This document shows positions 12,206 through 23,296 of a stretch of 64,000 bases of DNA, one piece after another. The notes beneath the pieces are model-generated. The model did not search any database and was not told the DNA's origin. It was given only the letters and a program-made list of their open reading frames with translations. Source of the DNA: Crocinitomicaceae bacterium (GTDB lineage Bacteria > Bacteroidota > Bacteroidia > Flavobacteriales_D > Crocinitomicaceae). The position numbers and the translations under genes were made by a program. The first letter of the stretch is position 1; the number at the start of each line of letters is the position of its first letter. The stretch is from contig PAQM01000015.1 in NCBI GenBank assembly GCA_002709305.1, positions 1 through 64,000 of the forward strand. Direction: 5' to 3'.

Positions 12206-13003
12206 TTGTTTAATAAAGAAGAAACTATAGAAGAAATAAAATTAGCACGTAGAAGAGAGTGGGTCTTTATAATTTTATCTGGAGTCTTCTTAGGATCTTT
12301 AACTCTTTTAAATGTTCTTGGTGTCTCTCGTTTTATCGATCTTTCAGAATATTTTGGAATTGGGTCAAATTCGGATATTCGCTTTATTGTAGCTGTAGGT
12401 GTATTACCTTACCCTATAACATTTCTTTGTACAGATATTATTTCTGAAATCTTTGGAAAAAAACGTGCAAATATGCTTGTTTGGGCAGGATTGATTTTAA
12501 ATCTTTGGGTCATTTTAGTCTTGTGGTTTGGAGGATGGCTGGAAGCACCAGATTCTTTACTCTCTAATGGTAAGCTACCAATTGATATTATTGATGGTCA
12601 GGTTGTTGTGCCTCATGGATATTCTTTTTATGAAATACGTACATTGACATTTGGTGCTACTTTTGCATCTATGATAGCATATATAATTGCTCAATTTGTA
12701 GACGTTAGAATTTTTCATTATTTTAAAAAAAAAACACGGGGACGTTTTCTTTGGTTACGTAATAATGTTTCAACAATAACTAGTCAGATGATTGATTCTA
12801 TCGCTGTTATTTTAGTAACACATTATTATGCAGATGGTATACCAATAAAATCTGGTGAAGATGTTTATTCTGTTTTAATTATGTTTATTCTTAGCAGTTA
12901 TTTGTTTAAGTTATTTTTTGCAATAATTGATACTATACCTATATATATAGCCGTAAAGTATATTAGGAGATTTTTAAAGATAGATGATGAATTACCTTTT
13001 TGA
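12206..13003 (+). CDS. yhhQ: Queuosine precursor transporter (YhhQ family)
   Basis: A 265-residue inner-membrane protein of the COG1738/YhhQ family, which imports queuosine precursors (preQ0/preQ1) used to modify tRNA. It has about six hydrophobic segments and the family signature VLPYPITFLCTDIISEIFGKKRA, followed by MIDSIAVILV. The start is TTG at 12206: an in-frame stop lies at 12188-12190 and no ATG occurs until deep inside the conserved region. An A10 tract lies at 12725-12734 within the gene. Its last 12 bases overlap the end of the convergent MFS gene. Confidence 0.9.
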   Translation: MFNKEETIEEIKLARRREWVFIILSGVFLGSLTLLNVLGVSRFIDLSEYFGIGSNSDIRFIVAVGVLPYPITFLCTDIISEIFGKKRANMLVWAGLILNLWVILVLWFGGWLEAPDSLLSNGKLPIDIIDGQVVVPHGYSFYEIRTLTFGATFASMIAYIIAQFVDVRIFHYFKKKTRGRFLWLRNNVSTITSQMIDSIAVILVTHYYADGIPIKSGEDVYSVLIMFILSSYLFKLFFAIIDTIPIYIAVKYIRRFLKIDDELPF

Positions 13004-14765: not shown

Positions 14766-15296
14766 ATGTTAAGTGAGGCAACATTTGGAGCAGGATGTTT
14801 TTGGTGTATTGAAGCTTGTTTTAAAGACTTAAAAGGAGTTTTAGATGTTATTCCTGGCTATATGGGTGGTAATGAAGAAACTGCAAATTATACTGATGTT
14901 TGCTCTGGAAAAACAAATCATGCAGAAGTAACTAGGATTTTATATGATTCTGATGAAATAACGTTTGATAAATTATTAGAAGTTTTTTGGTATATACATG
15001 ATCCAACACAGTTGAATAGGCAAGGGAATGATATAGGAAGTCAATATAGGTCAGTGATTTTTTATCATAATATAGAACAAAAAAAAAAGGCTGAATTCTA
15101 TAAAAAGAAACAAAATGATTCTAATATTTGGGATAAACCTATTGTTACAGAGATAACAATTTGTACTCATTTTTATCCTGCTGAAGATTATCATAAAAAT
15201 TACTTAGAGTTAAATCCTCAGAATCCATATTGTAAATCTATTGTTAGGCCAAAAGTTGATAAGTTTAGAGCAATATTTAAAGATATTATTAAGTAA
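14766..15296 (+). CDS. msrA: Peptide-methionine (S)-S-oxide reductase
   Basis: Reduces the S form of methionine sulfoxide. The 176-residue protein carries the catalytic GCFWC motif at residues 10-14 and other MsrA signatures (GYMGG, NYTDVCSGKTNHAEV, PTQLNRQGNDIGSQYRS, FYPAEDYHKNYL). An in-frame stop at 14748 rules out an upstream extension with a signal peptide, so it should be cytoplasmic. Second gene of an msrB-msrA unit ended by a strong hairpin. It contains an A10 tract (15079-15088). Confidence 0.94.
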   Translation: MLSEATFGAGCFWCIEACFKDLKGVLDVIPGYMGGNEETANYTDVCSGKTNHAEVTRILYDSDEITFDKLLEVFWYIHDPTQLNRQGNDIGSQYRSVIFYHNIEQKKKAEFYKKKQNDSNIWDKPIVTEITICTHFYPAEDYHKNYLELNPQNPYCKSIVRPKVDKFRAIFKDIIK

Positions 15297-21565: not shown

Positions 21566-23296
21566 TTAATATTCAATTTCTAAATTAAGTCTTTCTTTTA
21601 ATTTATGTAAGTTAGGGTTTTTTTTCGCTAATGACATAAATTTTTCTTTTCCTGTTTGAAATTGGATATCGATTTTTTGATTTTGAGAAATTTCCATTTT
21701 AAAGGTTATAAGGTAGTTGTTTAATTCAGATCTTATAAAACTTGTTAGTTCTTCAAATAATGGATTGATGTAATCGATTTGAATTTGATTATCTACTTCT
21801 AAAATATATTCATTTTCAGATTTTTTTTTGGGAGCTCTTTTAATTAATGCATTATAGATGGTCTCTTTTCGTTGTTTTTTCATTTTGAAAGCGAATTTTT
21901 CCCATGCTATTTTAAGTTCTTCAAGTGTATATTCATTTTTAGGTATATTTTCTTCGAGTAGTTTTTTTTCTTCGTTAACTTCTTCGTTTTTCTGAAGCAT
22001 TTCCTTTATTGATAATATTTTCACTTTGGAATTTTTATCTTCTTTTTTATCCGTAGGTATATTATCTTTTTTTCTTGAAATATTTTGATGTTCTTTTTCA
22101 GGAGTATTATTTGTAGTATTTTCTTTTGTTATGAAGTCTTTGATTTCTTCATTTTCAAATGGAATTATCTCTACTATATCAGTTAAGGATTTTTTTTTTT
22201 CTAGTTCTTGTTTAATAGAACATAATTGCATAATTGCCATTTCAACTAATAGCCTCTGGTTTTTTGATATCTTATATTCGACATCTGTTTTACTTAATAC
22301 ACCAAGTGCACGCACTAAGTTATTTGGATTAAGTTCTTGTGATTGTGCAATATATTTTTTTTTGATTGATTCACTTACTTCAAGTAGTTCCGCTGTTCTT
22401 TGATCTTTACAAACAAGTAAGTTTCTATAATGATTTGCTAAACCTACGATAAAATTATGTGGATCAAAGCCTTTTTCGATAATTTCATTCAAGATTATTA
22501 AACCACTTGGAATGTCTTCTTTTAATGTACTTTCAACAATACTAAAATAATAGTCATAATCAAGTATATTTAAATTTGAAATAACATTTTCGTAGGTAAT
22601 ATTATCTTCAGAATAAGTTACGATTTGATCAAAAATAGATAGTGCATCCCTTAATGCTCCGTCTGCTTTTTGGGCAATAATATGTAATGCTTCAGGCTCA
22701 GCAGAAATTTTTTCTCTATCTGCAATTAATGCTAAATGGTCTGCAATATCTTTTACTTTAATTCTAGCAAAATCAAATATTTGACACCGTGATAGAATAG
22801 TAGGTATTATTTTGTGTTTTTCTGTAGTTGCAAGAATAAAAATAGCATGTTTAGGAGGTTCTTCTAATGTTTTTAAGAATGCATTAAAAGCACTTTGAGA
22901 GAGCATATGAACTTCATCAATGATGTAAACTTTATATTCTCCTAATTGTGGTGCAATTCTAACTTGGTCTATTAGGTTACGGATTTCATCGACTCCATTA
23001 TTTGATGCAGCATCTAACTCATATACATTTAGGGATGATCCAGAGTTAAAGGATAAACACGAATCACATTTTTCGCAGGCTTCAATTTTTTCAGATTTGT
23101 TAGAACAGTTAATTGTTTTAGCTAGAATCCTAGCGGTAGATGTTTTACCAACACCACGAGATCCACAAAATAGAAAAGCCTGTGCTAGATGTTCATTTTT
23201 TATTGCATTTCGTAAAGTTGATGTAATTGAATTTTGACCTACAACTGTATCGAAGGTATTGGGACGATATTTTCTGGCTGATACTACAAAATCCAT
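21566..23296 (-). CDS. dnaX: DNA polymerase III subunits tau/gamma
   Basis: The 576-residue clamp-loader ATPase. Domain I-II shows Walker A GSRGVGKTST, the zinc-binding Cys set (NCSN, CEKCDSC), Walker B VYIIDEVHML, TTEKHKIIPTILSRCQIFDF (sensor/SRC motif), then the domain III collar ending near MAIMQLCSIKQELE (about residue 365). Beyond this is a Lys/Glu-rich linker and the tau-specific C-terminus that contacts the helicase and polymerase. An A11 tract falls exactly at the end of domain III (see separate entry), suggesting a short gamma form is made as well. Upstream is a carotenoid desaturase; a TAnnTTTG-like box (TAAATTTG, 23309-23302) lies close to the start but without a spaced TTG. Confidence 0.96.
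   Translation of the reverse strand: MDFVVSARKYRPNTFDTVVGQNSITSTLRNAIKNEHLAQAFLFCGSRGVGKTSTARILAKTINCSNKSEKIEACEKCDSCLSFNSGSSLNVYELDAASNNGVDEIRNLIDQVRIAPQLGEYKVYIIDEVHMLSQSAFNAFLKTLEEPPKHAIFILATTEKHKIIPTILSRCQIFDFARIKVKDIADHLALIADREKISAEPEALHIIAQKADGALRDALSIFDQIVTYSEDNITYENVISNLNILDYDYYFSIVESTLKEDIPSGLIILNEIIEKGFDPHNFIVGLANHYRNLLVCKDQRTAELLEVSESIKKKYIAQSQELNPNNLVRALGVLSKTDVEYKISKNQRLLVEMAIMQLCSIKQELEKKKSLTDIVEIIPFENEEIKDFITKENTTNNTPEKEHQNISRKKDNIPTDKKEDKNSKVKILSIKEMLQKNEEVNEEKKLLEENIPKNEYTLEELKIAWEKFAFKMKKQRKETIYNALIKRAPKKKSENEYILEVDNQIQIDYINPLFEELTSFIRSELNNYLITFKMEISQNQKIDIQFQTGKEKFMSLAKKNPNLHKLKERLNLEIEY
22190..22200 (-). promoter_or_regulatory. dnaX: A11 slippage/frameshift tract in dnaX
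   Basis: On the coding strand G-A11-TCC encodes Glu366-Lys-Lys-Lys-Ser370. One extra A gives Ile-Leu-Asn then TGA (372 residues); one A fewer gives Asn-Pro then TAA (370 residues). Both products would end right after the clamp-loader collar, like gamma subunits made by programmed slippage or frameshifting in Thermus and E. coli. It is the longest coding homopolymer I noticed in the window. Confidence 0.6.

Follow-up and report, generated by a model that had tools for sequence, protein, structure and literature searches.

The dnaX gene and its A11 run

Tau, the subunit that couples the clamp loader to the polymerases, is encoded by a dnaX gene on the minus strand of the window, the whole stretch of 64,000 nucleotides that was analysed (Table 1). 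The identity of the gene is supported by a profile search, in which it matched NF011531 with 722.8 bits (cut-off 685) and also TIGR02397, PF13177, PF22608 and PF12169, and by a comparison with PDB sequences, in which residues 1-288 matched solved E. coli-type tau/gamma chains. In the window's genome this dnaX is the sole full-length match. The original prediction had placed an uninterrupted run of 11 A's at the end of domain III, the collar of the clamp loader, and both the sequence and Pfam confirm it: the run starts at the second base of codon 366, reading GAA AAA AAA AAA TCC, and since the Pfam match to domain III (DNA_pol3_gamma3) spans residues 244-371, the A11 lies at the end of the collar domain. 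In silico edits likewise agreed with the claim that one A more or less would lead to a gamma-like protein, because removal of one A gave a product of 370 aa ending at the TAA and addition of one A a product of 372 aa ending at the TGA (both in Table 1).

Table 1. Features of the dnaX locus, in window coordinates
Feature	Position	Strand	Description
dnaX (DNA polymerase III tau/gamma)	21566..23296	minus	576 aa, tau in the templated frame
Predicted RNA hairpin	22204..22221	minus	Stem of 5 bp and loop of 8 nt, separated from the tract by 3 nt
Candidate A11 slippage tract	22190..22200	minus	Codons 366-369; T11 on the plus strand
TAA stop	22183..22185	minus	Reached on loss of one A; in most relatives a stop at the same codon closes the templated frame
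TGA stop	22179..22181	minus	Reached on gain of one A or by a -1 ribosomal shift
Tau-specific C-terminal part	21569..22189	minus	In frame here; in the -1 frame in 102/104 family loci

Within the window's frames of at least 120 codons, the A11 is the longest A/T run of at least 9, and it alone among such runs has both alternative frames closed within 3 codons. The A10 runs elsewhere, said in the prediction to lack twin stops, do lack them, with stops at 14 and 9 codons for the run at 12725-12734 and at 22 and 1 codons for that at 15079-15088. By itself, an A11 is not extraordinary in this genome, and the idea that it was unique there was rejected, as a hand count over the 2.3 Mb gave 23 distinct runs of at least 11 A's, some of them in long frames. 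Two other loci of the same genome, L247 (C6:305775-307185) and L255 (C22:55030-56440), hold an A11 well inside a stop-to-stop frame, of 248 codons in the former and at least 414 in the latter; these are possible further slippage sites, or possibly chance.

Conservation of the run across dnaX loci

We searched 200 genomes of the window's family (194 with a match, 24 genera) and read the dnaX junction in 108 loci, of which 104 are non-identical. Named records were the source of L034-L038, L040 and L042; four of these are the same genes as family loci, and the membership of L038, L040 and L042 was assigned by similarity only. A wider survey comprised 80 named loci (best matches), the best 30 from a phylum sample of 158 genomes and 29 chosen stretches, which together with the family amounted to 238 loci, 234 of them non-identical. 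A run of A9-A13 was found between codons 335 and 405, a zone chosen after the first tables had been examined, in 211 of these 234 loci, related dnaX sequences not being independent of one another. A run of at least 9 A's is present in the zone in 104/104 family loci and 107/130 outside the family. The family runs are A10 (90/104) or A11 (14/104); outside, A10 also dominates (77 loci, with 19 A9, 9 A11, 1 A12 and 1 A13), and the runs occupy all codon phases (0 in 18, 1 in 53 and 2 in 36).

Runs of at least 9 A's are 361-fold enriched in the zone in the family (105 vs 2 elsewhere in the genes) and 734-fold outside it (107 vs 1). The outside case is L045, and both family cases lie in the window's own gene, in which two A9 runs accompany the A11, at 22355-22363 and 21821-21829; in the stretches checked, 0/103 other family loci had such a run outside codons 335-405. 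In three genomes larger than 5 Mb, with dnaX at 57-66% GC, A10 matches numbered only 3-5 each, one of them at dnaX. The 23 outside loci lacking a run have a mean GC content of 0.52 vs 0.43 for those with one. The expectation that the tract and both stops would be conserved even though the codons could vary was clearly borne out by the comparison.

Reversed layout in the window's family

The genus is represented by 34 genomes, that of the window among them, and most of their dnaX matches are broken near residue 370. All 29 loci fetched from the 33 genus-mates (L005-L033) have a run of A10 or A11 at codon 366, their templated frame is closed at 370 aa by a TAA or TGA, and their tau tail runs on in the -1 frame. 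In the 200 family genomes a full-length match free of internal stops was given, among the matches listed, only by the window and by genome G082. In L017 the tau frame is itself broken about 71 codons past the A10 run, by an assembly error or a true mutation. The same two-ORF layout extends through the family, where tau lies in the -1 frame in 102/104 loci and is in frame only in the window and in L034 (the latter from the same genome as L114), with the frame less certain where it exceeds the stored stretch (L026, L162 and L172 in the family, L095 and L102 outside). The stop in the templated frame comes 1-2 codons past the run in 100 family loci and 5-6 codons past it in L180 and L194. As three of the two-ORF genomes are single-contig assemblies (G089, G099 and G122), faulty assembly does not account for the layout as such. 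With its flipped frame the window, like L034, is an exception in the family. The prediction that gamma arises by slippage suits the layout of the window; in the rest of the family (102/104), as read from the sequence, the roles are reversed, gamma being templated while tau would need slippage.

Outside the family tau is in frame in 74 loci, in the -1 frame in 31 and in the +1 frame in 2, bringing the non-identical loci at this site to 135 recoded and 76 in frame. The two with the tail in the +1 frame, L103 and L150, would need one A fewer or two more to make tau, which is the rare direction. A FastTree phylogeny built from the N-terminal part calls for at least 18 changes of the tau frame over 215 labelled tips and 11 changes in whether the run is present over 238 tips, counts that had no shuffle control and that assembly errors would inflate.

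The substitution pattern indicates that the tau tail is under purifying selection in the shifted frame. Over 22 distinct family pairs, substitutions at codon positions 1/2/3 numbered 370/196/1482 in 4391 codons of the tail, and 233/54/1401 in 4400 codons of the N-terminal part of the same pairs; the repeat pair L153/L182 (= L036/L037) was dropped from the initial 23, and L034, with its tail in frame, is a member of one pair.

Stop codons and structure around the run

A -1 ribosomal shift reaches a single alternative frame, whereas slippage of the polymerase gives access to the two of them. Stops close both non-tau frames within 6 codons in 103/104 family loci and 86/107 outside, compared with 16.4% and 13.3% at control codon positions elsewhere in the genes; as the family stops overlap a Leu-Thr-Asp stretch conserved through shared ancestry, the family count does not represent many independent events. 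The +1 frame, used by neither layout, is closed within 6 codons in 101/102 two-ORF loci of the family (control 34.6%), in 24/31 two-ORF loci outside it (29.8%) and in 60/74 one-ORF loci outside it (34.3%). In these one-ORF loci the -1 frame is closed in 74/74, at a median of 1 codon, and the +1 frame at a median of 5; the 21 outside loci without twin stops all have the +1 as their open frame. This asymmetry of the stops, together with the nearly uniform -1 direction of tau, fits either a ribosomal -1 shift or slippage that would mostly add one A.

On the 3' side, structure was not enriched in the 45 nt that begin 5 nt past the run, either outside the family (88 representatives, p 0.89) or within it (67 representatives, p 0.9). 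The corresponding stretch of the window folds at only -0.5 kcal/mol (rank 0.87 among segments of the gene), compared with -5.4 kcal/mol (rank 0.20) on the 5' side. A downstream frameshift stimulator, found neither in the group as a whole nor in the window, was rejected; none of the six sub-threshold Rfam matches obtained at E <= 10 was relevant, and the window's tract contains no A_AAA_AAG.

On the 5' side, structure was enriched in the 45 nt before the run, both in 89 outside representatives (Wilcoxon p 3e-8) and in 67 from the family (p 1.6e-12). Restricting the measure to hairpins that end 0-3 nt before the run gave a mean of -3.78 vs -1.16 kcal/mol outside (Wilcoxon 4e-6; median rank 0.167; 39/89 with no hairpin) and of -4.64 vs -0.81 kcal/mol in the family (2e-12; median rank 0.049; 5/67 with no hairpin). 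The strength of the stem varies: L069 has 10 bp abutting its A10 (-16.1 kcal/mol) and L152 has 8 bp ending one nt before the run (-8.8 kcal/mol), while the predicted hairpin of the window has a weak stem (-3.8 kcal/mol, z -2.23, equalled by 8/200 shuffles). This stem, GUUCU...AGAAC, differs from the GUUCC...GGAGC of near relatives by a compensated change. Across 90 distinct family sequences the 5-bp stem, which RNAalifold also gives, is 93.3% paired, a level reached by 0/500 shuffles (87.0%), and pairing falls to 27-50% when the partner is slid. Its covariation score is 0.304 vs 0.199, with the two-sided changes coming from one pair only, unpaired in 23/90, and two of the five pairs invariant.

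An 8-bp hairpin was also predicted in a group that we take to be Flavobacteriaceae-like (25 distinct sequences with the run at codon 352-357, phase 1, register fixed), its pairing being reached by 6/1000 shuffles. Covariation in this group was not significant, as 106/1000 shuffles reached the score and one slide (+3, 5 pairs) exceeded it, and it was dropped as support for the hairpin. The predictions taken together indicate that the 5' hairpin is a real local tendency, not a universal one, and a role as a slippage stimulator is plausible by analogy.

Probable transcriptional slippage and alternative explanations

The explanation we favour, with good though not full confidence, slightly reduced on account of the asymmetry of the stops, is that the A11 is a programmed transcriptional-slippage site giving both tau and gamma. 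Programmed production of two dnaX products at the site appears close to certain, and transcriptional slippage is the likely means, its occurrence and efficiency being what we infer from comparing sequences. RNA polymerase would realign on the run and produce mRNAs with varying numbers of A's, of which those with 11 (or 11 plus or minus 3) would encode full-length tau, while the others would stop within 2-3 codons of the run and give a gamma of about 370-372 aa, comprising the clamp-loader ATPase and collar but lacking the tau tail. Just behind the run, a small hairpin formed by the nascent RNA at the RNA exit would probably promote slippage, as described for a Roseiflexus IS element. In most family relatives, which have A10, gamma would be templated and tau made by one extra A; which product is templated would matter little, because the polymerase mixes the frames.

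A more specific proposal, which we advance tentatively and do not hold to be the probable case, is that hairpin and A10 form an element of long standing in Bacteroidota, which Chlorobi-like relatives may share, similar to an intrinsic terminator in which an A-run replaces the U-run, with the polymerase setting the ratio and the layouts flipping. The length of the A-run would about equal the 9-10 bp RNA:DNA hybrid, and a hairpin in the exit channel would loosen the all-rA:dT hybrid, leading to re-registering and not to release. Because the polymerase, and not the DNA frame, would set the tau:gamma ratio in such an element, one-base indels would be nearly neutral and the templated product would flip, the window being a recent flip.

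The nearest competitor as to mechanism is ribosomal -1 frameshifting at A_AAA_AAA, which, with the polymerase not slipping, would make gamma here and tau in the relatives in an E. coli-like way. Any run of at least 9 A's does hold an in-frame A_AAA_AAA, tau lies in the -1 frame in 133/135 recoded loci, the +1 frame of one-ORF loci is closed less often and later than the -1 frame, and potential E. coli-like stimulators are described for the two-ORF gene of Chlorobium phaeobacteroides in the accessible text of PMC5009743. Seven A's would suffice for such a shift, yet the modal run has 10, and the +1 frame, which a -1 shift cannot reach, is closed above control in all three groups of loci. Structure is enriched 5' and not 3' of the run, the downstream stretch of the window folding only weakly, and according to the accessible part of PMC6321510 a hairpin immediately 5' of the site dampens -1 shifting, by 70S ribosomes too. 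L103 and L150 would moreover need the opposite direction, and the window's tract is not of the A_AAA_AAG type. Since the stops close both frames and structure is found 5' but not 3', polymerase slippage is favoured and ribosomal frameshifting appears improbable; the Thermus-like reading in the original prediction thus gains support, fitting somewhat better than an E. coli-like one.

The frame of the window invites a different doubt, namely that its eleventh A is a mistake of sequencing or assembly, or else represents a minor variant, and that the real gene has A10 and templates a gamma of 370 aa. This would concern the frame of the window only and is compatible with slippage. The rarity of the window's layout in the family speaks for it, as does the product predicted after removal of one A, which at 370 aa matches that of the relatives exactly; the genome is moreover a 29-contig assembly, and the 33 genus-mates searched include no second genome of the species. 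However, in L034 too the run is A11, against A10 in its relative L118, which has identical adjacent flanks and 85% identity over the 900 nt before the run, and the 12 A11 family loci other than these two exceptions all keep the two-ORF layout, so that A11 is not generally a frame-breaking misread. The A11 of the window may be a true flip or an error, and we regard the error as the less probable, though by no means a negligible, case. Far less credible is that the tau tail of the relatives is a separate protein, made from an internal start or by coupling to the gamma stop, with no need of a frameshift. If every frame is counted, 16 of the 138 recoded loci (duplicates included) do have an ATG no more than about 10 nt from the stop, but in the tau frame the first ATG, GTG or TTG comes at a median of 43 codons past the tract and in none of the 138 within 5 codons of the run, for which reason an internal start was rejected; tau is, besides, a single ORF in the window and 75 other loci. 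Least credible of all is that the run merely reflects an AT-rich genome, by chance or as ordinary poly-lysine codons. The 29% GC of the window and the many other long A runs of the genome, some within long frames, would lend it colour, but the dnaX run is conserved across loci in position, length and flanking stops, at up to 66% GC, and its conservation in all three codon phases rules out chance poly-lysine, leaving this reading with practically no weight.

If slippage is the means, an essential replication gene leaves the choice of its product to errors of RNA polymerase across a common bacterial class, tau in nearly all members of the window's family would depend wholly on recoding, and programmed slippage would be a stable way of setting subunit ratios. 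Many dnaX genes have the appearance of broken genes although they are intact, and so risk annotation as pseudogenes or as split genes. The natural A10/A11 flips offer a ready test of ribosome against polymerase.

Relation to known systems

In Thermus thermophilus, dnaX uses transcriptional slippage on an A run (PMC1088944, PMC5009743), reported in the accessible part of the latter as adding A's. The window resembles it in having at least 9 A's on the sense strand, tau as one ORF (576 aa) and stops in both other frames, so that slipped mRNAs would give gamma. It differs in having A11 instead of A9, a run directly at the end of domain III and a predicted hairpin 3 nt upstream, and in belonging to a family that usually templates gamma. 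In E. coli, the same gene yields the same two products by a ribosomal frameshift at A_AAA_AAG with a Shine-Dalgarno-like stimulator on the 5' side and a stem-loop on the 3' side (accessible text of PMC5009743 and PMC3711429); there gamma comes from a -1 shift only, whereas the window has neither A_AAA_AAG nor a 3' stem-loop.

The two-ORF layout is itself known: as far as the accessible text of Antonov et al. 2013 (PMC3711429) goes, 17 such dnaX genes in 12 genera, nine of them with A10, led to a proposal of transcriptional realignment. The 102/104 family loci are like these genes, with gamma templated and tau needing -1 (one extra A), and the window is unlike them in having tau in frame. Relative to what that text reports, the present loci add 135 recoded and 76 in-frame cases at one site, flips of layout, closed third frames and the predicted 5' hairpin. 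It has also been noted, in the accessible part of PMC5009743, that with shifting near 50% a change of one base is enough to exchange the roles. The same part recounts stem-loop-stimulated slippage in a Roseiflexus IS630 element (Penno et al. 2015), where an inverted repeat lies directly 5' of the slippage motif, an arrangement that the dnaX site may share through its predicted hairpin; the Roseiflexus motif is T5C5, with a one-base deletion, in a mobile element, and the one here an A homopolymer in a replication gene. Literature searches, which covered few subscription journals, listed neither a paper describing a hairpin 5' of dnaX slippage sites nor a Bacteroidota-wide survey of the dnaX switch. 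The 5' hairpin, the family-wide reversal and the repeated frame flips appear to be new beyond the two-ORF A10 dnaX genes of 2013.

Among more distant members of the phylum, L213-L219, possibly Chlorobi-like, have templated frames of 396-408 aa and A9-A10, with the tail in the -1 frame. In L093, judged by eye, the A10 apparently lies in the loop between the pairable arms GTGATTTTAG ... CTAAAATCAC, an arrangement unlike that of the others.
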